Positions 2,378 to 20,996 of a DNA stretch of 22,067 bases are shown in pieces. The DNA is from a virus: positions 1 through 22,067 of IMG/VR virus record IMGVR_UViG_3300034152_001163; one strand, given 5' to 3'. Made by a program: the position numbers and the translations under genes. The notes below the pieces were generated by a model, which did not search any database, had not been told where the DNA came from, and saw nothing but the letters and a program-made list of their open reading frames with translations. The stretch's first letter is position 1. Every line of letters begins with the position of its first letter.

Positions 2378-2531
2378 CCCATTTTTCCCCAAAGCATTTC
2401 GGGCAGACTTGATTCGGCTTTTTTGGTTTCATTCCTGAACCTTTACAGCGAGGACATAATTTAAACCTGTTCTCGCTGTTTCTTTTTATTGCCCTATCTG
2501 CAATTTCATCAAGCCTCTTCCGGTTCATCAT
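2349..2531 (-). CDS. Small zinc-finger-like protein (DnaJ-type CxxCxGSG)
   Basis: A 60-residue protein. A longer reading from ATG 2543 exists, but the GGAAGGGA ribosome binding site lies just before the ATG-ATG pair at 2531/2528, so the inner start is preferred. It has two cysteine pairs, CPRCKGSG and CPKCFGEKW, spaced like the repeats of the DnaJ cysteine-rich domain, so it probably binds one zinc ion. It overlaps the upstream small gene by 23 nt and the convergent gene ending at 2377 by 29 nt. It is the last gene of the left array, and no recombination site is visible downstream. Function unknown; a protein- or nucleic-acid-binding adaptor is possible. Confidence 0.6.
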   Translation of the reverse strand: MMNRKRLDEIADRAIKRNSENRFKLCPRCKGSGMKPKKPNQVCPKCFGEKWVKREQDPLK

Positions 2532-2661
2532 ATTCCCTTCCATCGTCCCAATTAGGGCATCCTTCTGCCTGTTTTTTTGATTTACATTCTCTTATACATG
2601 TCCAGCATCTACCTATATCAGCAATTGCTATCCCGAATAAATTTTGTTGGATGTAATTCAT
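2509..2661 (-). CDS. Small Cys-rich hypothetical protein (50 aa)
   Basis: This ORF starts at ATG 2661 with AAAGAG six bases upstream and stops at TGA 2511-2509. Four cysteines (CWTC, a third five residues later, then CPNW) suggest a small metal-binding fold, and the C-terminus is acidic. It begins directly after the GTT box ending at 2674, the position of the first gene in a cassette, and overlaps the following gene. I do not recognise a family. Confidence 0.5.
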   Translation of the reverse strand: MNYIQQNLFGIAIADIGRCWTCIRECKSKKQAEGCPNWDDGREYDEPEEA

Positions 2662-2668
2662 ATCTCTT

Positions 2669-2702
2669 TATTTCTTACAACGTATTGCAAAGTGCATGCT
2701 GT
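2669..2702 (-). repeat. Recombination-site-like repeat (GTTGTAAG box)
   Basis: On the minus strand 2702-2676 matches 20140-20166 on the plus strand at 25 of 27 positions. The 15 bp ACGTTGTAAGAAATA (2683-2669) is identical to 20351-20365. It sits between the stop of one small gene and the SD of the next. The inner TGCA-CTT-TGCA is palindromic, but the left arm is poorly preserved, so this may be a degenerate attC. Confidence 0.6.
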
Positions 2703-3085
2703 TATTTTTTGTAGCAAGTACCACAATTCCAACAATAGCTATGATGTTCTCTCATTTCAGCCGAACACTCATCACAAGATAATGGCATACTTTTGCTGTT
2801 GGTGGATGTAAATTTTTCTTCCACCAGTTTAGCAAACTCATCAATTGCATCGTTTGAAATGTCCAATAGTTGCTCTAGTGCCTTATTCATCCATCCTTCC
2901 GCTGTAATACGACACCCATCTAAATGGGCATCTTTCGCCAATTCCAAGTACTGGAGCAATTTTGGGTTGCCTGTGTTGGTGGATGTAAGTTTTTCTTCCA
3001 CCAGTTTTAGGGCTGTGAATATAGACGGGTCGTATGATGTATCAACACAATTTCGTACAATCTCCCATGCATTTTCTAAATTCAT
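2702..3085 (-). CDS. Small two-part protein: helical N-domain plus C-terminal zinc ribbon
   Basis: The start is ATG 3085 because GGAGG lies 5 nt upstream (3091-3095); an in-frame TTG at 3097 is not needed. The 127-residue protein has a helical N-terminal half, two copies of a KLVEEK(L/F)TSTN segment, and a C-terminal ribbon with CDEC and CWNCGTC pairs. The linker NSKSMP just before the ribbon is encoded by 20 bp identical to DNA in the gene at 19796-20137. Family unknown. It looks assembled from interchangeable modules. Neighbours and spacing suit a cassette gene. Confidence 0.6.
   Translation of the reverse strand: MNLENAWEIVRNCVDTSYDPSIFTALKLVEEKLTSTNTGNPKLLQYLELAKDAHLDGCRITAEGWMNKALEQLLDISNDAIDEFAKLVEEKFTSTNSKSMPLSCDECSAEMREHHSYCWNCGTCYKK
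2799..3007 (-). repeat. Two 32-bp direct repeats, each able to form a hairpin, inside a gene
   Basis: Copies at 2799-2830 and 2976-3007 differ at one base (2812 versus 2989). Each contains TGGTGGA and TCCACCA as a perfect 7-bp inverted repeat. Both copies are in the same frame and encode LVEEKxTSTN. The outer part ACATCCACCA recurs on the minus strand at 3236-3246 and, in another frame, on the plus strand at 20832-20841. Confidence 0.8.
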
Positions 3086-3102
3086 TATAGCCTCCAATGA
3101 AA

Positions 3103-3142
3103 AATTTATTTACACTAACGTCTTGCCAATAACTGAAGTGTT
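3103..3142 (-). repeat. Recombination-site-like repeat (GTTAGTGTAAAT box)
   Basis: On the minus strand the stop codon is followed by ACACT, a short loop, then CGTTAGTGT, so the outer arms pair ACACT with AGTGT. The box is a variant of the GTTGGTGTAAAT box at 3380-3393 and 20606-20619. The inner arms are weak; a diverged attC-like site is possible. Confidence 0.5.
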
Positions 3143-3348
3143 TAATCCCATTCAAACCTTTTACAGTTTTGATTAAAGCAATGCAGTACATGGTATGCAT
3201 CGCCTCCACATTCAGGACATTTCGGTTTTGGCTTGTTGGTGGATGTGTTTTTGACTACCTTCGTTTTTCTGTGGCGTTCCGAATGGACACCTACCCAAAA
3301 ACAAACGTATGCCACTAATCCACAATATATTGAACCTGCCCAACTCAT
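3142..3348 (-). CDS. Small membrane-anchored zinc-ribbon protein
   Basis: The 68-residue protein starts at ATG 3348, with GGTGAT upstream as a modest SD. Residues ~2-20 are hydrophobic (a single membrane helix or uncleaved signal), followed by a basic stretch, a TSTNKPKPK linker and a C-terminal zinc ribbon CPECGG...C...NCK. The linker DNA shares ACATCCACCAACA with the neighbouring cassette gene. The likely topology is inner-membrane anchored with a cytoplasmic zinc ribbon (N-out/C-in by the positive-inside rule). Function unknown. Confidence 0.6.
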   Translation of the reverse strand: MSWAGSIYCGLVAYVCFWVGVHSERHRKTKVVKNTSTNKPKPKCPECGGDAYHVLHCFNQNCKRFEWD

Positions 3349-3376
3349 TTTATATCACCTACAAGTTAAAAGTTAA

Positions 3377-3470
3377 AAACATTTACACCAACGGTATGGC
3401 AAACGGGTGAAGTTAGCAGCCCGCAATAAGAGTACAAAGAGAATGATAAAAAACTGCGAGTGTTAAAAGT
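3377..3470 (-). repeat. Intergenic site with GTTGGTGTAAATG box
   Basis: On the minus strand 3393-3377 is identical over 17 bp to plus-strand 20606-20622. Upstream lie short inverted segments: CACCCG pairs with CG-TT-GGTG, and CGGG with CCCG. A clear left arm like those of the better sites was not found, so it may be eroded. The 122-bp gap 3349-3470 holds no other gene I can see. Confidence 0.5.
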
Positions 3471-3686
3471 TTAATTGCAATCGCTACTTCTTGCATAATT
3501 TTCCCCTTTGCCTGTTGTGTGTTGTAAAATTTTTTCTTCCTTAATTTCATTTGCGCAATTCAATGCATAGTTAAGGTAATCAACTATATGCTTTTCAGGA
3601 ACGAACCCTGCTGCACCTGCTTTTTTAACAATATTTTTTGCGCACTGTATATTTATTATTAATTCGTCAAGTTTTGTAAACGCCAC
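3471..3686 (-). CDS. Small hypothetical cassette protein (71 aa), distantly like the gene at 20650
   Basis: Starts at GTG 3686 with AAAGGAG 7 nt upstream, a leader almost the same as that of the gene at 4017. It is helical, with the pattern ELI...I..A...A..GFVPEKHIVDYLNYALNCANE. The protein at 20650-20865 has a similar layout (LINRHCAEN...FILVDYLSACLYAF), so the two may be members of one phage family of small helical proteins. No catalytic residues. It begins right after the attC-like site 3715-3771. Confidence 0.55.
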   Translation of the reverse strand: MAFTKLDELIINIQCAKNIVKKAGAAGFVPEKHIVDYLNYALNCANEIKEEKILQHTTGKGENYARSSDCN

Positions 3687-3714
3687 CTATAATCTCCTTT
3701 CAAAAAATTTTATT

Positions 3715-3771
3715 GCACACAACGTTCCGGCGCACACCGGATGCGTCAGTTTACGGTTGCGCCTGTTGTGC
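3715..3771 (-). repeat. attC-like recombination site, 57 bp
   Basis: Minus strand, in order: outer box GCACAAC (3771-3765), inner arm GGCGCA (3763-3758), a loop holding the TAA stop of the upstream gene, inner arm TGTGCGCC (3736-3729), spacer GGAAC, and outer box GTTGTGTGC (3723-3715). Inner arms pair over 6 bp and outer boxes pair with a bulge. Length, box order and the stop in the loop match integron attC sites. The boxes depart from the textbook GTTRRRY/RYYYAAC at one base. Confidence 0.75.
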
Positions 3772-4017
3772 GAAGTTCGGGTGGCCCTCCATAGTTTTCT
3801 GCCGCCCTTCTTCCGTAACATGAAACACATAGCTTTCGTTTACTTCGTCAAACGGATTGCGCCGTTTTTCCATAAGCCCTTTTGAAACAAGCGATTCCAA
3901 ATGCGGCATATCGCTATGACCAGGACCGGCAACAAAATTATTGCGATACGGCGAATCTTGATAATCCAACCCTAAACTATGACGCATAATACTCATTTCT
4001 CTCGGCGTGATTTCCAC
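3751..4017 (-). CDS. Small phage hypothetical protein, winged-helix-like (88 aa)
   Basis: Starts at GTG 4017 with AAGGAG six bases upstream. The order REMSIMRHSLGLD, YRNNFVAGPGH, LESLVSKGLM, then YVFHVTEEGRQ resembles a family of ~80-residue proteins widespread in phages and prophages (recognised by eye, not searched). The last part reads like the wing of a winged helix-turn-helix. The codons for its final residues double as the left arm of the attC-like site 3715-3771. It is the first gene after the leading-edge element 4070-4108. Confidence 0.65.
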   Translation of the reverse strand: MEITPREMSIMRHSLGLDYQDSPYRNNFVAGPGHSDMPHLESLVSKGLMEKRRNPFDEVNESYVFHVTEEGRQKTMEGHPNFAQQAQP

Positions 4018-4069
4018 AAATATCTCCTTTCGTGTGGGCGGCCTATAACTCAGAAAGCCACCCGGATTT

Positions 4070-4108
4070 CGTACAACTACTTCAATTATGCCCTATGTTC
4101 GCAATTGA
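4070..4108 (-). repeat. 39-bp leading-edge element, near-identical to 19270-19308
   Basis: The minus strand 4108-4070 matches plus strand 19270-19308 at 36 of 39 bases and ends in AGTAGTTGTACG. It covers the last codons and stop of the gene 4082-4270 and ends at the start of the left array. Its partner stands at the start of the right array. This is the position expected of an attI-like insertion site. An alternative is a duplicated gene tail carrying the site. Confidence 0.8.
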
Positions 4109-4270
4109 GTCTCTTTGAGCTGTTTTTCTGAACTTTATCTTTTCAGGATGAGATTCCGGATAGTCTGCCATTACCTTCTCAACTTTTTCAATACAAGTTT
4201 GCTTATATTTACATTGAAACTCTTTGCATCCAGGACATTTTTTTACTGGCTCAACTTCTTTTTTGGGCAT
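4082..4270 (-). CDS. Small Cys-containing hypothetical protein (62 aa)
   Basis: ATG 4270 lies 20 nt inside the end of the primase gene, which ties this gene to the replication operon rather than to the cassettes. It has a CPGC...C...C cluster near residues 12-26 in a Lys-rich context, then a charged C-terminus ending IANIGHN. The C-terminal codons form part of the 39-bp element repeated at 19270. Possibly a zinc-binding accessory of the replication genes; no family assigned. Confidence 0.6.
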   Translation of the reverse strand: MPKKEVEPVKKCPGCKEFQCKYKQTCIEKVEKVMADYPESHPEKIKFRKTAQRDSIANIGHN

Positions 4271-5198
4271 TCTGCTCCCTTTGTTTTAATACTATGTCAT
4301 TCCAGTCTCCGGTAACCGGAGGAAAAGCAACTATAACCTCAAATTTTCCATAAAGCCTTGTCGCTAATTTATATGCGCTGGCTTGCCCCTGAAAACTTTT
4401 ATCATTATCTCCAAATATCCAAACCGTTTTTATTCCATGAGGAGGAGTAAAAGTCTCCATAATCTTGTTCGATATTGTTGCCCACACAGGTACTTTAAAC
4501 AGGCTAGAAGCGGCCAAAGCAGTTTCGACTCCCTCTGCTACCCCTAGCACGTCTTTTGGGGCCTCAGCAAGTCGTATAGCGCAATTTTTAGCCTTTTGGG
4601 TTGTTGGAGTCATCTTCTTTGGGCTCTCAAGGTCTGCTTTCCGGTCTCCAGTTATATATGTTCGGTGAATACCAACAACCTTGCCGCCAAAGTTTTTAAC
4701 CAGAGACAGAATTGCCGGCTGGTATTCTTTTGTTTCTGAGCAATAGCATTTTGATGAAAATCTGACATCTTGAATCCCTTTGATGTCCAGGGCTCTTTTA
4801 TGGAAATATTTTGCTGCCTGGTCATAATATCTTCCCACCGGTATTCCGCTTTTCCATATCGAACGGATTAATTTTTTGACCTTTTCTTTTTCTTCAACTG
4901 CTTTTTTGTGTTCATCGCTATGAAAAAGGTCTACGCCAAGCTTTAGCGCAACAGTCTTTTTTGCTTCTCCAAAGTTTATGTTGAAAACTTTTTGCAGCAA
5001 ATCCCATCCGTCACCGGCTCCGCAGGTGTTGCAAATCCATGTCCCTCTGCCCTCCTGGTCATCAAATCTAAACCTGTGTCCATTCCTTCCTTTTCCGCAT
5101 ATCGGGCACGGTCCATGAGTTTGAGCGTTTTGTGGCACTTCAATACCCAGAAGGCTTAGAATTTCTGCCCATCTTCCAATTGCAAAGCTATTATCCAA
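4251..5198 (-). CDS. Phage DNA primase (zinc ribbon + Toprim)
   Basis: A 315-residue protein starting at TTG 5198, supported by GGAGG 6 nt upstream inside the end of the helicase gene (8-nt overlap). Residues 31-59 form a zinc ribbon (CPIC...CNTC) with the intervening RFDD segment seen in P4/T7-type primases. The C-terminal half has a Toprim core: AEGVETALAA (E222), IFGDNDKS (D264, D266) and GDWNDI. The protein should synthesise RNA primers on phage DNA at the replication fork. The helicase is a separate gene immediately upstream, so unlike T7 gp4 this is a primase without a fused helicase. It shares a transcript with that gene and with the small gene at 4270. Confidence 0.88.
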   Translation of the reverse strand: MDNSFAIGRWAEILSLLGIEVPQNAQTHGPCPICGKGRNGHRFRFDDQEGRGTWICNTCGAGDGWDLLQKVFNINFGEAKKTVALKLGVDLFHSDEHKKAVEEKEKVKKLIRSIWKSGIPVGRYYDQAAKYFHKRALDIKGIQDVRFSSKCYCSETKEYQPAILSLVKNFGGKVVGIHRTYITGDRKADLESPKKMTPTTQKAKNCAIRLAEAPKDVLGVAEGVETALAASSLFKVPVWATISNKIMETFTPPHGIKTVWIFGDNDKSFQGQASAYKLATRLYGKFEVIVAFPPVTGDWNDIVLKQREQNAQKRS

Positions 5199-7665
5199 CT
5201 GCAGCCTCCATCTTTTCTCGTTTTTGTTTCTGCTTAATCCATTTGATTCTGAGGTGTTTCATGTAGTTATTAAACTCGGTGCTAGGTTTTATAGCATCAA
5301 CTCCTCCCATATTTCTTGGCCAGCATCCTATTTTTTCTCGGTACTTGTGAGCTACCCATCCTGGGTTGTATCCTTTTTGCCTTTGAATATACATAAACAT
5401 TCCGTACCATTGTTGTTTGTCTTTTAGTGTAAATTTTTTGTCATCTTTATTCAAGCTTTTTAATTCAGCTTCCAAAGCTTCAATCTTTTTTCCGTAGTTG
5501 GGAATTTCTGTCATGCATTCTGGACACTGCTTACCAGTAAATATACAATCACACTCTTTACACGTCATCTTATGCTTCTCTTTGACGTTACGGATTGCTT
5601 TGTAATGTGCAATCTTTTTCCCTTCCAAAGACCAGTACGTATCGTCCTCATAGAATCCATGTTCATTAACGTTAGCACCGTGGTCAAGAACAATAAAATT
5701 ATCTTTGTTGTGAAACGGTCTCGCTCCCCTTCCAACCATCTGGATGTATCTACCGATTGATTTTGTCGGGCGAGCCAGGCAAACACACTCGATATCTGGG
5801 ATATCTGTCCCTTCGGTGTACAGGTCGACATTGCAAAGCACTCTGACTTCTCCGGACCGGAATCGATTAAGTACTTCCTCTCGCTCTTCGTCTGAGCTAT
5901 AACTATCCAAATGCTCTGCGGTGATGTCGTATTTTTGAAACTCTCTGCAGATGGCGACGGAGTGTTTTACGTTTACCGCGAAAACGATTGTCTTTTTGTT
6001 GTTGGCTATTTTAAGCCAATTTGTGACAATATCACCGATAATTTTGTGGTCTTCTACCGCTTCTCCTAACTCCTTTTTGTCGTAGTCACCGGCAACCATC
6101 CTTATTTTGTCTAAATCCGGTGTAGAAAGTCCGTAGTAAACGCCTGGAACCAAAGCTCCTGCCTCAATCAATTGCTTTACGGAAACAGGCTGTACGAGGC
6201 TCTCATAGTAATTACCCATAGCAACTCCGGAAGACAGTGACGGTGTCGCAGTAAATCCGATGACAATTTTGTCTTGATATTTTTCGAGAGTGTCTTGAAA
6301 TGTTTTTGATAGTGAGCGGTGGCAATTACCCGTAATAGAAACTCTGTTATTTCGTCGGATTATAATATTTCCACTTGGCACTCGAACACAGTAAACATTT
6401 CCATGGTAGTTATATTTAGATTTTTTGATTGTTTGGCATGATTTTGTGTTTGTAAATTTAAAGCACATCCTATGGACATCCTTGTATGTTTCTTTTCTGC
6501 TATCTTTTTGGATGTTATGAGAAGACCATATCCCTCCGAGAGCGCATAATGCCTGAATAAAGTCTGCGTCTTTCCCGTTTGTTCCGCTCCAGTACGTCAC
6601 ACCTTTTGTATATCCATCCCACAAAACAAGCTCTTTAATAAAGTCCACAGCATAGTCTTTTGAAATGTCTTCCAGATGAATTATATCTCTCAAATTTTTA
6701 CTCCACAATCCGTCTGGAACGTAAACCTGGAACCTTCTTTTTTTGTTTGTGTTTCCATTTTCAGGTGTAGATTTTACTTCTTTAAATTCAAATTTGCAAT
6801 GAGATATTATTTTTAACAGTCTATCAATTTTTCTTTCTTTTGAAAACTGAAACTGAATTATTTGTCTTCCTCGTGGTTTCTTTTTGATAATGCAACCGTC
6901 TGCAGCTAATGCAATTTTAAACCTATCAAGAAAAGTAAGTTGTTTTTTTCCGGACCCAAATCCAGCACAAAATATTTTTTGAGAGCCATTAGGTCTCCAG
7001 CCTTCAAATGGTTCTTTACGAGTAGACTTTAATTTTTTTACTAACTGCAGGTGGTTTCCTGTTCCAACAATATCAACATGAGTGTTTTTAAATTTGTACA
7101 TTTTCCCAGTGTATTCTTTTTTTACGATTTTTTCTGGGACAACAAAGTCAACCTTATGAGAGTCCGCGTCAAACTGTGCAACCTTTTCGTGTTTAAGGTT
7201 TTTAATTAACGTCCATCCCGATTCTGTAAGTATCTCAGTTTCTGGGTCTAAGCATTCATCAATGAAAACAACATCCGCATTTATAAACCAGGGGCTTTCC
7301 GTTTCCCCGAAGACAGTGTTCTCTTCAATCTGGATTCTTCTTGAGTATGTTTGAATGGTTCCTATTTGACACATGCTGTTAAGGTTAGACCCTTCTCCTG
7401 CCATTAGAAGACTACTTTCAACCTCACAACTTTCAAATCTATCCTGAAGCTGCATGACTAATTGCCGACGATGCATCAGAGCTAAAACTCTTTTGCGGTT
7501 GTCTATGCATAACTTGGAGATAATTCCCATGATGATGGATTTACCTGAGCCAGTGGGAAGTGTAACTAAAATCTTTCTGAATCCTTTTCTGAGCTGTTCC
7601 CGAATTTTTTCGACCACATCCGACTGATAATCTCTTGGAGTAATCACGACATTTCCTCTCTGCAT
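5191..7665 (-). CDS. SF2 DNA helicase (DECH box) interrupted by an intein
   Basis: 824 codons, of which residues 138-447 are an intein. The joined exteins (~514 aa) form an SF2 helicase of the SSL2/UvsW-like type: a DYQ motif near the N-terminus (Q-motif-like), Walker A LPTGSGKS (36-43), motif II DE|CH split by the intein (136-137/448-449), GFTATP (470-475), motif V TEGTDIP and motif VI QMVGRGARP (641-649). A cysteine cluster CKEC-C...CPEC (702-717) suggests a C-terminal zinc ribbon. It likely unwinds or remodels phage DNA in replication or recombination. The ATG at 7665 has no SD, whereas an in-frame GTG at 7647 has AGAGG at good spacing and may be the true start. The end overlaps the primase gene. 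Confidence 0.9.
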   Translation of the reverse strand: MQRGNVVITPRDYQSDVVEKIREQLRKGFRKILVTLPTGSGKSIIMGIISKLCIDNRKRVLALMHRRQLVMQLQDRFESCEVESSLLMAGEGSNLNSMCQIGTIQTYSRRIQIEENTVFGETESPWFINADVVFIDECLDPETEILTESGWTLIKNLKHEKVAQFDADSHKVDFVVPEKIVKKEYTGKMYKFKNTHVDIVGTGNHLQLVKKLKSTRKEPFEGWRPNGSQKIFCAGFGSGKKQLTFLDRFKIALAADGCIIKKKPRGRQIIQFQFSKERKIDRLLKIISHCKFEFKEVKSTPENGNTNKKRRFQVYVPDGLWSKNLRDIIHLEDISKDYAVDFIKELVLWDGYTKGVTYWSGTNGKDADFIQALCALGGIWSSHNIQKDSRKETYKDVHRMCFKFTNTKSCQTIKKSKYNYHGNVYCVRVPSGNIIIRRNNRVSITGNCHRSLSKTFQDTLEKYQDKIVIGFTATPSLSSGVAMGNYYESLVQPVSVKQLIEAGALVPGVYYGLSTPDLDKIRMVAGDYDKKELGEAVEDHKIIGDIVTNWLKIANNKKTIVFAVNVKHSVAICREFQKYDITAEHLDSYSSDEEREEVLNRFRSGEVRVLCNVDLYTEGTDIPDIECVCLARPTKSIGRYIQMVGRGARPFHNKDNFIVLDHGANVNEHGFYEDDTYWSLEGKKIAHYKAIRNVKEKHKMTCKECDCIFTGKQCPECMTEIPNYGKKIEALEAELKSLNKDDKKFTLKDKQQWYGMFMYIQRQKGYNPGWVAHKYREKIGCWPRNMGGVDAIKPSTEFNNYMKHLRIKWIKQKQKREKMEAAVG
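6325..7254 (-). mobile_element. Intein with LAGLIDADG endonuclease in the helicase
   Basis: Residues 138-447 (310 aa) of the helicase. It begins CLDPETEIL (block A) and has TGNH (block B). Two dodecapeptide-like endonuclease motifs follow, around IALAADG and ELVLWDG. It ends VYCVRVPSG...VSITGN (blocks F/G), followed by Cys+1. The insertion lies between E and C of the DECH box. The residue before the terminal Asn is Gly rather than the usual His, as in some other phage inteins. Removing it rebuilds VFIDECHRSLS exactly. Confidence 0.93.
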
Positions 7666-11173: not shown

Positions 11174-11764
11174 ATGCCACCAAAAGGAAAAAAAGCCGCA
11201 AGGGTGAGCCCGAAGACTTGGGGGCTTATCAAAGGTCTTTATGTTGGAGGGAATTTTTCTTCCATTGAAGATTTGCACTCGTACCTTGAAAAAAACTTTG
11301 AATCCGGAACGTACCCATCTTTTTTCCGGTTAAGAGCTGTTGCAAATAAGCAAAAGTGGTACGATGAAAAAACTCAGAATCCAGTAAAAGACATTATTGC
11401 TCAGAGCACTCTAGAGCTGTTTGCTCAAGAGGGTATGCCCAAAAGAGAGGCAGTTAAGCTTTGTATCGAAGGTATGACTGCTGGCAGGCAATGCTTTGAA
11501 AAGCTACAGAAAAGAATTGTTGATGAAGGCAATATGCCTCAGGCAATAGAGATTCTTGAGTTTATGAAAAACCATATCAAGGACCAGGGTGTAGCTCTTC
11601 GTTATTTGTCTGAATACAATAAAATGTGTGGTAACTATGAGCCAGTTAAGGTTCAAGATGTGACCACAGAGGCGGAAGCTCAAAGCAAAGCAAACGACGA
11701 AGCTTACAAGAAACGGTTTAAATTGTATGAATCAGCTAAAGATAGAACCGGTACTGACGGCTGA
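11174..11764 (+). CDS. terS: Terminase small subunit
   Basis: 196 residues from ATG 11174 with AGGGAG upstream. The basic N-terminus is followed by a helix-turn-helix-like region (WGLIKGLYVGGNFSSIEDLHSYLE ... FFRLRAVANKQKWY), common in DNA-recognising small terminase subunits, then a long helical region for oligomerisation. Its main support is position: it overlaps the start of the large subunit by 38 nt. It should bind the phage packaging start site and regulate TerL. Confidence 0.75.
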   Translation: MPPKGKKAARVSPKTWGLIKGLYVGGNFSSIEDLHSYLEKNFESGTYPSFFRLRAVANKQKWYDEKTQNPVKDIIAQSTLELFAQEGMPKREAVKLCIEGMTAGRQCFEKLQKRIVDEGNMPQAIEILEFMKNHIKDQGVALRYLSEYNKMCGNYEPVKVQDVTTEAEAQSKANDEAYKKRFKLYESAKDRTGTDG

Positions 11765-14700
11765 TGCAATTGATTACTACTGGGACCGACCGGTAGAATT
11801 TATACAGGATAATATTATTTATCCTGCTTCAAAAATTATACACGGTCTTTCGATGACTCATCATCAAAAACATTTTGCGAATGCGGTTTCCAAATACCAT
11901 AGGGTTTCAATAGAGTCTGGGCACGGATGTCTTGCTAAAGGCACAGAAGTTCTTATGTGGCCTATGGGTGTAAAAAAAGTTGAAGATGTTTGTGTTGGCG
12001 ATTTGTTGATGGGTGACGATTCTTTCCCGCGAGTTGTTGAACGATTGTGGCGTGGGCAAGAGCAAATGGCAGAGATTCATTATAGAAACGGTGAGCATTA
12101 TAAAGTTAATATGTCTCATAAACTGTGCGTCATTGCTTCTCAGAGCCATGGGAAACAAAAAAAAGGTGATATTACAGAAGTTACTGTTAGAGATTATCTA
12201 AAATGGTCAGACCGAAAAAAAAGAACAAATGTTGGATATAAAACTGAAATTCATTATTGTTTAGATTTTTACGATGAAGAATTACCACCTTACCTGCTTG
12301 GCTTATGGCTTGGAGATGGCAGCTCTGACAGGGGAGTTATAACAAATGTTGATAAAGATGTTATTGATTATTTAAAACCAAAGATTACAAGTTCTTACAA
12401 AAATTCTTCAGGTTGTTCTTCTTTTTATATAAAAAATCTTAAAAAAGCATTAAAAAGGTGCGGCCTTTTAAAAAACAAGCACATTCCTTCTTTTTATCTT
12501 TATTCTTCTAAAAAACATCGATACGATTTGTTGGCAGGATTAATTGATACTGATGGCTGTTTAAGTCGCAAATCAAATTATGATATTGTTCAAAAAAATA
12601 AAACATTGGCTTATGACATACTTTTTCTTGCCAGGTCTTTGGGGCACAATGCAACAATAAAAAAATGCAAAAAAATGTGTTGTAACAATGGTGTTTGGGG
12701 TGTTTATTACCGAATTAATATCACTAGAAATATATGGAAAATTCCCGTAAGGATATTAAGGAAAAAGGCTTTAAAACCAAAAAAACCCCAAAGAACTAAC
12801 CTTAATATGGCTATAAAAATTAAACCTGTTGAAACTGATAATTATTATGGATTTACAATTTCAGGAAATGGAAGGTTTGTTTTAAAGGATTTTACTGTTA
12901 CTCGTAATACTGGTAAGTCTTCCTCGATGTCGTGGGTTGCATGCTGGTTTCTTTGCACCAGGCATAATACTCTCGGGATGCTCACCAAAATTCCCATTAT
13001 TGCCCCAACTTTTCATCAGCTTTACGATATTATATGGCCGGAATTTAAACGCTGGATTCCAATGAGTCGGCTTAAAGCACTGTTTCAAACAAAATCTGAC
13101 GAGATTTATATCTCTGGGTACAAAGACAATTCTTATATTCGCGCTCGTTCACCAAAAGAGCCCGATAATGTTCAAGGGTTTCACGCAGCACATTTACTTT
13201 GGATTTGCGATGAAGCTTTTGGTATTACTAATGAGCAGGTCTGGGAAACTATTGAAGGTTCACTTACCGAGCCAGACAATAGGATTGTTATTGCCGGTCA
13301 GCACACGTTAATGGTTGGGTATGCTCACGATTCGTTTAACCGAGACAAAGAGTTTTGGAAAAATTTAAGATTCAATTCTGAGGAGTCTCCTCTGGCTAAG
13401 CCTGAGTATGCTGCTCGCGTAGCCAGAAAGTACGGTAAAAGTTCTCCTGTTTACCGCGTTCGTGTTCTTGGGATGGACCCAGGTGATAATCCAGATGCAT
13501 TTTTGGCAATCGGTGAAGTTCAAAAGGCAATGGACAGGGAGAATGTTTTAATTGACGGAGAGTTTTGCATCGGTCTTGACTGTGCTCGATTTGGAGATGA
13601 TTTGACTGTTGTAACTCCTGCTGTCGGGAATCACATTTTTGACCAGACGTTTTCAAGTAATACTGATACATTTGATATAGTAAACCTTGCTCTTCAAGCG
13701 ATTCGAAAAATCAGAAAAGAATACGGAATTCAAAGGACCTGCTATATCAAAGTTGATGCGACAGGTGGGTATGGCGCAGGGGCTATAGACGTTTTAAACA
13801 AAAATACAGAAGATAATATTGTTGTTGTTCCGATTAATTTCTCTGAAGGTGGAAATAATGAGTATCACGATAAAATATCTATTATGTGGGGAGAGATAAA
13901 AGAAAAACTTCCGTACCTCCGGCTGCCAAAGTGTGATTTCTTATTTGAAGAGTTATCAACCAGAAGCTATAAAATTGATAGCAAAAGTCGGGTGTGGATT
14001 GAGCCAAAAGAGCAGTATAAAAAAGACCATGAGTCATCTCCTGACCGGTCTGATTCTCTGGCTCTCTGCCTTACAAGCAAAGCAATTGTTCAAAGGGTAT
14101 GGCCGTATTACATCTCGACTAATCCTACCTGTAAGAGAAAGTTTAATCTTGATTTTAGGCACATGAGTCCGGAAGATGGTGCTGTTTATGGTGTTATGAC
14201 TCGGGACAAAGATACTGGCATTTACGGCAATTGGTTTTTCTGGGGCAGAAAGACTCGTGTGCTGAGAGTGATTTCTGAATTTGTTCACACATCACCGGTA
14301 ATTGAAGATGTCGTTTATGACGCTCTGGATAAAGCTAGTGTCCCTCTTAAGAAAAAACCAAATGAAGTCTGCGTTGAAAAGGTGTTTGCAAATGATGAGT
14401 GCTTTAAAGATGGTAACAATTTGAAAAAAGCATTTCGTCGGTATGGAATAACTTTAAAACAAAACTCTCGATTTGAGCCAGCAGCATCTATTGCGGTTGC
14501 AAATCAAATGTTTAGAGAGCATAGAACTGTTGTGCATGCCACAAAGTGTCCAGAGACCGATTTGCAGTGGAACTCCTGGAGGATAGAAAACAAAATGCCC
14601 GCCAAAGGATATCCTTTATGCAATAACCTTCTTATTGTGGTAAACGAATTAAAGTCTCTTGGCGAGCTTACAGACAAGCTTCCTATGCAACCATATTCTC

Positions 14701-14795
14701 AAAGAAAGTATAATTTGCGGAACCGGCTAAGAAAAAAAGAGTCTGGAGCCCTTACTGGTAACGATAAAAGGGAATATGATTATCTTCTTTCATAA
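11727..14795 (+). CDS. terL: Terminase large subunit with an intein in the P-loop and an extra C-terminal domain
   Basis: 1022 codons, with residues 68-394 an intein. After splicing, the P-loop GHGTGKSS is restored; Walker B is LLWICDEAF (D495, E496). The nuclease domain has GLDCARFGDD (D618, D624/D625), KVDATGGYG (D677) and DRSDSLAL (D773/D776), a normal TerL RNase H fold ending near residue 795. Residues ~805-980 then form a further domain whose layout (LDF, EKVFAND, KQNSRFEP.ASIAV, WNSW, a C-terminal helix NNLLIVVNEL) recalls a second TerL nuclease. TerL drives ATP-powered DNA packaging and cuts the concatemer. The ATG at 11727 lacks a clear SD and is inside terS, so translation is probably coupled. 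Confidence 0.92.
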   Translation: MNQLKIEPVLTADAIDYYWDRPVEFIQDNIIYPASKIIHGLSMTHHQKHFANAVSKYHRVSIESGHGCLAKGTEVLMWPMGVKKVEDVCVGDLLMGDDSFPRVVERLWRGQEQMAEIHYRNGEHYKVNMSHKLCVIASQSHGKQKKGDITEVTVRDYLKWSDRKKRTNVGYKTEIHYCLDFYDEELPPYLLGLWLGDGSSDRGVITNVDKDVIDYLKPKITSSYKNSSGCSSFYIKNLKKALKRCGLLKNKHIPSFYLYSSKKHRYDLLAGLIDTDGCLSRKSNYDIVQKNKTLAYDILFLARSLGHNATIKKCKKMCCNNGVWGVYYRINITRNIWKIPVRILRKKALKPKKPQRTNLNMAIKIKPVETDNYYGFTISGNGRFVLKDFTVTRNTGKSSSMSWVACWFLCTRHNTLGMLTKIPIIAPTFHQLYDIIWPEFKRWIPMSRLKALFQTKSDEIYISGYKDNSYIRARSPKEPDNVQGFHAAHLLWICDEAFGITNEQVWETIEGSLTEPDNRIVIAGQHTLMVGYAHDSFNRDKEFWKNLRFNSEESPLAKPEYAARVARKYGKSSPVYRVRVLGMDPGDNPDAFLAIGEVQKAMDRENVLIDGEFCIGLDCARFGDDLTVVTPAVGNHIFDQTFSSNTDTFDIVNLALQAIRKIRKEYGIQRTCYIKVDATGGYGAGAIDVLNKNTEDNIVVVPINFSEGGNNEYHDKISIMWGEIKEKLPYLRLPKCDFLFEELSTRSYKIDSKSRVWIEPKEQYKKDHESSPDRSDSLALCLTSKAIVQRVWPYYISTNPTCKRKFNLDFRHMSPEDGAVYGVMTRDKDTGIYGNWFFWGRKTRVLRVISEFVHTSPVIEDVVYDALDKASVPLKKKPNEVCVEKVFANDECFKDGNNLKKAFRRYGITLKQNSRFEPAASIAVANQMFREHRTVVHATKCPETDLQWNSWRIENKMPAKGYPLCNNLLIVVNELKSLGELTDKLPMQPYSQRKYNLRNRLRKKESGALTGNDKREYDYLLS
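11928..12908 (+). mobile_element. Intein with LAGLIDADG endonuclease in TerL
   Basis: Residues 68-394 (327 aa). It starts CLAKGTEVLM (block A) and has NMSH (block B). Two endonuclease motifs, LLGLWLGDG (189-198) and LLAGLIDTDG (268-277), are followed by a block F YYGFTISGNGRFVLKDF and an ending TVTRN before Thr+1. It sits between G and T of GHG|TGKSS in Walker A. The penultimate residue is Arg rather than His. The DNA is noticeably more AT-rich than the exteins. Confidence 0.95.
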
Positions 14796-19245: not shown

Positions 19246-19269
19246 CTCGTAGTTGGTGTAATATAGGTT

Positions 19270-19308
19270 TCAATTACGAACATAGTGCATAATTGAAGTA
19301 GTTGTGCG
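19270..19308 (+). repeat. 39-bp leading-edge element, near-identical to 4070-4108
   Basis: Matches the minus strand of 4108-4070 at 36/39. It contains the inverted repeat TTCAATTA (19269-19276)/TAATTGAA (19290-19297), followed by AGTAGTTGTGCG. In the left copy the same bases encode a gene's C-terminus; here the gene is absent. A further GTTGGTGTAA box lies just upstream at 19253-19262. Confidence 0.8.
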
Positions 19309-19333
19309 AAAAACCCTTTCCTTTGGAGATTAT

Positions 19334-19693
19334 ATGCGAAACCTAATTAGACAACTGTTGCCACATTTAGCTCGATTGCACCATTCGAACTGGCGCGAGT
19401 CTCGGCACCTGTATCCCCAGACGTGGTGGCTGGTTCCCGGTCGCCGGAATCGAAATGGATTGCTGTATCGTAGCATTACTGCTCTATGTGGATTTCTCAC
19501 CGGCCACGAGTTGTCAGCGACCGAAAAAGGTTATGGTGGTGGCACCCACATGGATTGTAATTGCCGGTGGTGTGATAAGGGGATACAGGTGCCTCTTGCC
19601 GAATGCGAAATGTCTCCCCATTTGCGGGGTTTGGTGGAAAGGTTTCGCGGGAATACCTTGGAGGGAAACGGGTTCGACGCACAACAACCGTAA
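19334..19693 (+). CDS. Cassette protein with Cys cluster (119 aa)
   Basis: GGAG at 19325-19328 selects ATG 19334 over the upstream GTG at 19304. Basic N-terminal half (LIRQLLPHLARLHHSNWRES), then the GHELS...GYGGG...CNCRWCD segment, a pattern I associate with small phage proteins that bind zinc. The last codons and TAA lie in the left arm of the attC-like site 19679-19746, as in integron cassettes. GC content is visibly higher than in neighbouring genes, which supports separate origin. Function unknown. Confidence 0.6.
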   Translation: MRNLIRQLLPHLARLHHSNWRESRHLYPQTWWLVPGRRNRNGLLYRSITALCGFLTGHELSATEKGYGGGTHMDCNCRWCDKGIQVPLAECEMSPHLRGLVERFRGNTLEGNGFDAQQP

Positions 19694-19746
19694 GCCGTTC
19701 GCTTCGCACACGCAGGAGCACGTCGGCTTACTATTCCGTTGTTTGC
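19679..19746 (+). repeat. attC-like recombination site, 68 bp
   Basis: Outer box GCACAAC (19679-19685), inner arm GTAAGCCG (19690-19697, includes the TAA stop), loop, inner arm CGGCTTAC (19724-19731) pairing perfectly over 8 bp, spacer TATTCC, outer box GTTGTTTGC (19738-19746). This is the cleanest example of the layout. Confidence 0.8.
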
Positions 19747-19795
19747 AATTTCGGTTTCTTTGGATTTGTAGGCAGCACTACTGGAAAGGAATATT

Positions 19796-20137
19796 ATGGT
19801 TGTATCAAAGGTTGTTGAACAAATGGAGCGTGATTATATTCGTGCATCTGCGTTGTGCGGTCAAATGCTTGCAACGTTGGCGCTCCCAAGAAACAAGGAG
19901 ACGTTTGCAGAATATTTGCCACCCGAACAATGGGAGCGTTTTAACCGTGAAATTGAGTTGTGGGAGCGCATATTTAAACGTGATGTCTCTTATCGCAGGT
20001 TTGCCGTGCTGCTGGGTAATGCGGAAGAAACCGAAACAACAAACAACAGCAAAAGTATGCCATGCAATCACGAAAATACACGTTCAGGCGGTTTGGGTAA
20101 ACCAGATATCTGTAACGATTGCAATAGTGAACTTTAG
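19796..20137 (+). CDS. Cassette protein: helical domain plus C-terminal Cys motif (113 aa)
   Basis: GGAAAGGA 5 nt upstream supports ATG 19796. Residues 1-75 are helical (QMERDYIRASALCGQML ... LPPEQWERFNREIELWERIF); a Thr/Asn-rich linker NNSKSMP follows, then a short C...C-N-D-C end. The DNA for the linker (20044-20063) is identical over 20 bp and in frame with the linker of the gene 2702-3085. The stop lies in the loop of the attC-like site 20110-20167. Function unknown. Confidence 0.6.
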   Translation: MVVSKVVEQMERDYIRASALCGQMLATLALPRNKETFAEYLPPEQWERFNREIELWERIFKRDVSYRRFAVLLGNAEETETTNNSKSMPCNHENTRSGGLGKPDICNDCNSEL

Positions 20138-20167
20138 GCACAGCATACATTTTGCAATACGTTGTAC
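20110..20167 (+). repeat. attC-like recombination site, 58 bp
   Basis: Outer box CTGTAAC (20110-20116), inner arm ATTGCAA (20118-20124), loop with the TAG stop, inner arm TTGCAAT (20152-20158), outer box GTTGTAC (20161-20167). The right half repeats the site at 2676-2702 (25/27). Confidence 0.72.
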
Positions 20168-20308
20168 AAAATAAAAAAGTGTTTCCGTATTGTATATCAA
20201 AAAGCCAGTCAAGGGTTATAGCTTTGTCCCCGCCTAGACAAAACAAAGTAAAGCTGTTTCGAGCTTCAGCGGCAGTACTTGCGGAGACACTTTTTTACAT
20301 CGTACAAC
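20161..20308 (+). repeat. Gene-less cassette bounded by 27-bp inverted repeats
   Basis: Ends 20161-20187 and 20282-20308 are inverted copies matching at 23 of 27 positions (GTTGTAC....TAAAAAAGTGT.TCCG). About seven of these pairs are expected from the flanking boxes, but the AAAAAAGTGT-TCCG part goes beyond them. A smaller stem AGCTTTG/CAAAG-TAA-AGCT lies inside. No ORF with SD fits, and the plus-strand frame that crosses it runs through both flanking sites. Possibly a regulatory or RNA-only cassette. Confidence 0.65.
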
Positions 20309-20359
20309 AACCCAAGTATTCAATAGCAAGTACTGCATACATTGGGCAGAACGTTGTAA
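20302..20359 (+). repeat. attC-like recombination site, 58 bp
   Basis: Outer box GTACAAC (20302-20308), inner arm CCCAAGTAT (20311-20319), loop, inner arm ATAC-A-TTGGG (20337-20346) pairing over 9 bp with one bulged A, spacer, outer box GTTGTAA (20353-20359). A bulged base in an inner arm is a hallmark of attC sites. Confidence 0.78.
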
Positions 20360-20398
20360 GAAATATGAAATTTCATTTTTATTATAGGAGTACTCAAA

Positions 20399-20602
20399 AT
20401 GGTCAATAAATACCGATATGTAGTTCACGAATTACCCAACGAGCGTTCAGCAGTTTACGATACATCAATTGGCAGAACGGTTTGTAATGGTATGCACGTT
20501 TCTGATTCGACCGAAATTGCAAACGCACTCAACATTAAGGAGGAAATTTCATACATCTTACAACACACACAAGCCGCAATTGAAACAGACGGCTGTGCGT
20601 GA
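20399..20602 (+). CDS. Small hypothetical cassette protein (67 aa)
   Basis: AGGAG upstream of ATG 20399. The sequence YRYVVHELPNERSAVYDTSIGRTVCNG reads as a beta hairpin, followed by helix STEIANALNIKEEISYILQH; no known family. Its stop TGA is inside the right inner arm of the attC-like site 20558-20616. Confidence 0.55.
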   Translation: MVNKYRYVVHELPNERSAVYDTSIGRTVCNGMHVSDSTEIANALNIKEEISYILQHTQAAIETDGCA

Positions 20603-20616
20603 GAACGTTGGTGTAA
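20558..20616 (+). repeat. attC-like recombination site, 59 bp
   Basis: Outer box TTACAAC (20558-20564), inner arm CACACAAGCCG (20566-20576), loop, inner arm CGGCTGTGCGTG (20590-20601) pairing with one unpaired G and one mismatch, spacer AGAAC, outer box GTTGGTGTAA (20607-20616). The last box plus flank is identical over 17 bp to 3393-3377 on the minus strand. Confidence 0.78.
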
Positions 20617-20649
20617 ATGTTTCCTCTTTGAACTTATAGGAGTTTTGCT

Positions 20650-20865
20650 ATGTCATTGCAGAAAGAATTAGAAGGTTTAATAAATCGTCATTGTGCAGAA
20701 AATGAATCCGATACGCCAGACTTTATTCTGGTGGACTATTTGTCAGCTTGCCTATATGCGTTTAACCGTTCAGTAAATATGCGTGAGACTTGGTATGGCC
20801 GCAAAACTCGGTATAATGCAGAATCGGAAACACATCCACCAGCAGGCAAAGAAAGTGCGAAATGA
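20650..20865 (+). CDS. Small phage hypothetical protein (71 aa)
   Basis: AGGAG upstream of ATG 20650. The N-terminus SLQKELEGLINRHCAENESDTPDFILVDYLSACLYAFN and the WYG motif recall a common family of ~70-residue phage proteins beginning SLQ.ELE.LINRHSAEN (recognised by eye). Helical, no catalytic residues. The final codons form the left arm of the palindrome 20851-20959. Its codons for THPPA contain the ACATCCACCA block also seen in left-array genes, here in a different frame. Confidence 0.65.
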   Translation: MSLQKELEGLINRHCAENESDTPDFILVDYLSACLYAFNRSVNMRETWYGRKTRYNAESETHPPAGKESAK

Positions 20866-20959
20866 GAGCTGAAAAAATCACTTGACCATACAAGGGCTTG
20901 CATCCAGAAATATGGTTATCTTCTGGTCACTGTAAGGTATGCTCACTTCGCACGTTTTC
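20851..20959 (+). repeat. 109-bp nested palindrome closing the right array
   Basis: The left arm 20851-20866 (GAAAGTGCGAAATGAG) pairs with 20942-20959 over 16 bp with one mismatch and a two-base bulge. Inside, CCATAC pairs with GTATG(C), and CCAGAA with TTCTGG. The right arm ends in CGTTTTC. It includes the stop of the previous gene. Either a long attC-like site or a structured terminator. Confidence 0.6.
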
Positions 20960-20996
20960 AGTACGTTCTATTAAATAATCATATAAAGGGGATGTA

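Follow-up and report, generated by a model that had tools for sequence, protein, structure and literature searches.

The question raised by this locus is whether the tiny genes that split a glycosyltransferase cluster on a phage contig constitute an array of mobile gene cassettes of the integron type, carried without an integrase. All 22,067 bases of an IMG/VR record make up the window under analysis, the contig of a tailed phage on which genes for terminase, helicase and primase are found; a homing-endonuclease intein was recognized in its terminase large subunit (TerL, 11727-14795) by a Pfam match, and the sequence of the helicase ORF (5191-7665) looks intein-interrupted as well. Cassettes in phages are already known, and 17 integron cassette arrays lacking an integrase (CALINs) were described in phages by Qi et al. 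2023 (PMC9892861). According to the analysis below, the window probably carries two arrays of mobile gene cassettes that are moved in trans, most likely by an integron-type integrase of the host.

Layout of the two arrays

Array A was located on the plus strand at about 19.25-20.96 kb, flanked by glycosyltransferase genes of the same strand, and array B on the minus strand at about 4.08-2.67 kb, after the primase gene of that strand; the direction of each array is that of the surrounding genes (Table 1). The single array of the original prediction corresponds to array A, whose co-oriented tiny ORFs and one gene-less unit were found as described, and array B (minus strand, about 4077-2675) had been overlooked. 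When units were read from GTT to GTT, array A was resolved into four complete units and a truncated one, and array B into four complete units and an extra start without an end; since no matching end was found for this start, array B is cut short there. Over the two arrays, eight intact sites lie between small co-oriented genes, the CALIN criterion being at least two recombination hairpins. The first unit of array A is richer in GC than the window (0.52 versus 0.40), as had been noticed before.

The palindromic joints do carry the AAC...GTT outer boxes that had been reported for them, and the stop codon, said to lie inside each site, does so for the intact genes. Site length is about 55-135 nt across the arrays in place of the 58-68 bp given previously, the boundaries of sites with long loops being set by folding and own-end matching. 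The completeness attributed to all sites does not hold for the leftmost, which is without R'', nor for the last (that of c5, about 20837-20960), in which AAC is changed to AGC and the matching right half is gone. The site of c2, the second of the array, spans 20041-20167 and has its R'' inside the ORF, and about 40 nt are common to the left ends of arrays A and B. In b4 (2975-3119, minus strand), a second internal R''-like end is present, as if from fusion of two units.

Table 1. Features of arrays A and B in the window
Feature	Positions	Strand	End repeats (start / end)	ORF	Hairpin core
Left end of array A: half site with L stem and R', without R'' AAC (from sequence reading and fold; leftmost site 19261-19308)	19252..19300	+
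Cassette c1	19301..19737	+	19301-19322 / 19664-19685	end at 19693	19686-19737
Cassette c2	19738..20160	+	19738-19759 / 20026-20047	19796-20137	20048-20160
Cassette c3	20161..20352	+	20161-20182 / 20287-20308	none on cassette strand	20309-20352
Cassette c4	20353..20606	+	20353-20374 / 20543-20564	20399-20602	20565-20606
Cassette c5, truncated	20607..20960	+	20607-20628 / 20822-20843	20650-20865 (phrog_18819)
Left end of array B: half site within 3' end of an ORF, resembling the left end of array A	4070..4116	-		4270-4082
Cassette b1	3724..4077	-	4077-4056 / 3786-3765	4017-3751 (phrog_13561)	3764-3724
Cassette b2	3393..3723	-	3723-3702 / 3535-3514	3686-3471	3513-3393
Cassette b3	3120..3392	-	3392-3371 / 3256-3235	3348-3142	3234-3120
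Cassette b4	2682..3119	-	3119-3098 / 2819-2798	3097-2702	2797-2682
Start of a further array B unit, GTTGTAAGAAAT...	2509..2681	-		50 aa

Most of the cassette products, which are small, have no known relatives. The families of c5 and b1 are phage families, and their members in cultured phages are arranged in tight overlapping operons without such hairpins. The Cys-containing C-termini of c2, b3 and b4 are encoded by the hairpin loop (20048-20137, 3234-3142 and 2797-2702, respectively); the tail of b3 contains CxxC and that of b4 is Cys-rich. These three tails are zinc-ribbon-like in appearance, and SKSMP is common to c2 and b4, the remaining parts of the genes being unrelated.

Matching of each unit with its own end

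The first 22 nt of each unit form an inverted complement to the 22 nt that precede AAC at the end of that same unit, with 16-20 of the 22 positions identical. This was observed in 11 of 11 units, namely the eight complete units of the window, the truncated one and two end-matched units in L001, a portion of the 64-kb contig of an uncultured phage distantly related to that of the window (p < 5e-6 when starts and ends were permuted), and comparison of the end of a unit with the start of the next gave no match above background. At position 11, A at the start is opposed to G in the complement of the end, and this mismatch is invariant in all 11 units; position 10 is mismatched in nine. A scan of the whole window for end-matched units returned arrays A and B only, with an average of 0.6 in shuffled windows. 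A looser scan based on R/L grammar was weak (four window hits of at least 14 versus 1.1 per shuffle) and was not used as support. Of 13 starts, 11 are followed at +28 to +32 by a TTRTA(G/T) box, compared with 0.8 after shuffling; a second small stem often holds this box (for example, 20382-20388) in its loop.

Shape of the hairpins

Seven sites were aligned after removal of the long loops. CAAC and CGTTG are invariant and the stem sequence is free, with nine of ten L-stem pairs changed on both sides; covariation was 0.552, compared with at most 0.199 when the pairing was slid. In the register, which is constant, left and right spacers of 1 and 5 nt are followed by 6 bp of stem, a 1-nt bulge in the right arm and more stem. 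Chance hairpins were ruled out by the covariation and by the restriction of end-matched units to the arrays. When the start of each unit was joined to its own end as in a circle, 10 of 10 junctions folded alike, and the outer stem continued past the interruption at positions 10-11. The bottom strands do fold, as the original prediction required, though in a modified attC form. Folding energies prefer the bottom strand at some sites only, and mismatches in wobble pairs were counted as 19 of bottom type versus 7 of top type, a result that is not decisive for the folding strand because 11 of the 19 represent one invariant position.

Comparison with integron cassettes

Bacterial integron cassettes (class 1, Vibrio, Shewanella and Bacteroidota) share with the window the GTT...AAC cores, the R and L stems, the placement of the site after the gene and a start that matches its own R''. 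Own-end matching of the R-box part is a known property of integron cassettes. It was also seen in 21 control cassettes taken from Vibrio, Shewanella, TJE1 and Bacteroidota arrays, few of them from Bacteroidota; in these, unlike in the window, the own ends match in the 7-nt R box and not beyond (p = 0.44). In canonical sites the spacers are 5/6 or 3/6, and the extra base is on the left (L'') arm.

The full attC layout ascribed to the sites by the original prediction was not borne out. Canonical geometry has an unpaired central spacer of similar length on both arms and an extrahelical base on L'', whereas the window sites have spacers of 1/5 and a bulge on the L' arm, and in place of the R' consensus GTTRRRY they read GTTGTTT, GTTGTAC, GTTGTAA, GTTGGTG, GTTGTGT and GTTAGTG. 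A covariance model built from ten canonical attC sites (R2) recovered attC sites outside its training set in Vibrio, Shewanella and Bacteroidota and gave no match above chance in the window and L001; E-values of the covariance models made here are rough. These departures count against the integron reading. The window behaves as an integron cassette array would, yet it fails defining tests of standard attC and is therefore classed as a variant, not as an ordinary attC array. The CALIN of Tetrasphaera phage TJE1 (Qi et al. 2023) resembles the window in its co-oriented cassettes carried without an integrase by a virulent phage, and differs from it in having canonical attC geometry and an own-end match of 7-8 nt.

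Units of the same type in cultured phages

The family was searched for by combining own-end matching with the position-11 signature, and is known here from two uncultured contigs and three cultured phages. Five units were found in Polaribacter phage P12002L, compared with 0.12 in shuffles; its sister phage P12002S also carries long-ended units, and Cellulophaga phage phi12:1 contains one unit (1439-1700 of L082) that shares these end repeats and the mismatch at position 11. The same scan found none in the Vibrio, Shewanella, TJE1, class 1 and Bacteroidota chromosomal controls. As in the window, the cassettes of P12002L (a CALIN) and P12002S are carried by virulent phages without an integrase, have own-end repeats of about 17-29 nt with a mismatch at positions 10-11, and show a longer hairpin spacer beside the following GTT. 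They differ from the window in their spacers (3/6, not 1/5), in their genes and in having ORFs opposed to the cassette direction. For P12002L, attC sites were reported by Qi et al. 2023 (PMC9892861), and IntI1 was shown there to recombine one of them, attC2 in the naming of that paper, with attI1. Integrons are not mentioned in the genome paper of the two phages. The own-end scan shows many more units than the two described attC sites (29237-40764 of L023 in P12002L and 1777-13678 of L081 in P12002S).

The two Polaribacter phages are about 99% identical elsewhere in the region, yet their cassettes differ. P12002S has an extra methyltransferase cassette of about 850 bp, and one cassette block is swapped for another between the phages, both breaks being at GTT in each case; P12002S also has three more cassettes with matched own ends, and in this third event the breaks are within the site and precede GTT by about 7 nt. 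Most of the breaks are thus exactly at GTT.

The related phage L001

Besides one further gene, TerS, the C-terminus of TerL and an acetyltransferase-like gene are common to L001 and the window. The array of L001 sits between TerS and TerL; in the window these two genes overlap, and this array locus is therefore empty there. Indirect evidence for mobility in the window comes from comparison of the 71-aa cassette of array A with its homolog in L001: the two are similar from GTT on (88/115) and unrelated upstream of it (33/67 versus a shuffled mean of 32.8). The small genes were not seen in a fixed order, for a single gene family is common to the window and L001, in different arrays at different loci. 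When carriers of arrays were sought among relatives by glycosyltransferase, TerL and cassette proteins, L001 was the only one obtained, and arrays A and B showed no DNA similarity to cultured phages. No close relative was found, and hence no empty site for the window arrays, which counts against the integron-type reading. The earlier claim of integrase-less cassettes in a phage is supported by the own-end matching, the break in homology at GTT and the gain and loss of cassettes between sister phages that carry this cassette type.

Source of the recombinase

No tyrosine recombinase (PF00589) was matched in the window or the L001 contig, both of which are possibly fragments, and none was found in P12002L or P12002S; the enzyme is therefore probably supplied by the host. 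An intI gene with attI beside an array, which defines a complete integron, was not found in the window. IntI above the curated cut-off was detected in 105 of 395 sampled Bacteroidota genomes, several of which had more than one. A bacterial integron with the site type of the window was found neither in about 1,090 sampled genomes nor at 20 Bacteroidota IntI loci. When a bacterial source was sought with model R1, the sampled Pseudomonadota, Bacteroidota and Bacillota yielded a single match, within an unrelated coding gene, and a pattern scan of genome contigs gave three hits, none with cassette context.

Proposed mechanism and alternatives

In the integron-type reading preferred here, each unit starts at GTT, carries one small gene or none, and ends in a folding site. 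In a circular unit, the site and its own start would fold into one long hairpin. Its outer stem would reach to about position 22 with the fixed mismatch at 10-11, and its inner stem would end in CAAC/GTTG; a net bulge of 4 nt, 6 bp of stem, a bulge of 1 nt and a loop that varies would follow. A recombinase acting in trans, for which an integron-type tyrosine integrase encoded by the host is the most likely candidate, would read the folded single strand by its shape and cut at or near G|TT, and the window phage could consequently lose, gain or shuffle units. The arrays, which follow the direction of the local phage operons, presumably depend on phage promoters for their expression.

It is possible, though unlikely, that the arrays represent a phage-adapted cassette system distinct from integrons, in which small genes would move as units closed off by a long hairpin of free sequence and fixed shape (22-nt own-end repeats, the 10-11 mismatch and bulges of 4 nt and 1 nt) under the action of a putative recombinase. 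Improbable, too, is a separate integron-like system that arose by convergence, with long inverted-repeat ends and a mover other than IntI (a Xer-like enzyme of the host, an HUH endonuclease or a phage enzyme that escaped recognition). The distinct hairpin geometry, the 22-nt end repeats and the fixed 10-11 mismatch, all absent from canonical cassettes, argue for such a system, as do the negative result of the canonical model and the lack of a link to IntI. The GTT/AAC core, the R and L stems, the order of gene and site and the own-end match of the R box are, however, features of integrons, and IntI1 acts on one site of P12002L, a phage with units of the long-ended type (Qi et al. 2023, PMC9892861).

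In T4-type phages, stem-loop/promoter elements serve to terminate and initiate transcription and are spread by homologous recombination; as in the window, small genes are separated there by stem-loops and reshuffled. It is nevertheless very improbable that the present hairpins are RNA elements or terminators whose gene order was changed by homologous recombination between repeated joints. Covariation alone cannot tell RNA from DNA hairpins, and the conserved box after most starts would suit such elements; however, unlike in the T4-type elements, no terminator-like site (a GC-rich stem followed by a T run) was present at any joint, promoter-like sites were at or below the shuffle level, and two observations would be left unexplained: starts that match the end of their own unit on the far side of a gene, and cassettes that differ in the absence of long homologous flanks. 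Equally remote is the possibility that the phage took up part of a host chromosomal integron on a single occasion and that this passive piece, not moving within phages, is now decaying, which would account for the broken ends of both arrays (c5, the left half sites and the end of B) and the missing integrase, but not for two arrays at separate loci in opposite orientation, cassette families common in phages with a related gene at a third locus in L001, sister phages that differ by whole cassettes of the same unit type, or the failure to find a bacterial integron with such sites.

Significance

Earlier phage cassettes were found through models of bacterial attC sites, and the family described here escapes the canonical model; own-end matching together with the position-11 mismatch provides a concrete rule by which it can be searched for. 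The family spans marine Bacteroidota phages and uncultured phages, and its cargo comprises ordinary phage genes and methyltransferases. Sister virulent phages differ by whole cassettes of this family. The family also makes it possible to test directly if such phages use an integron-type mechanism to shuffle small genes of their own.
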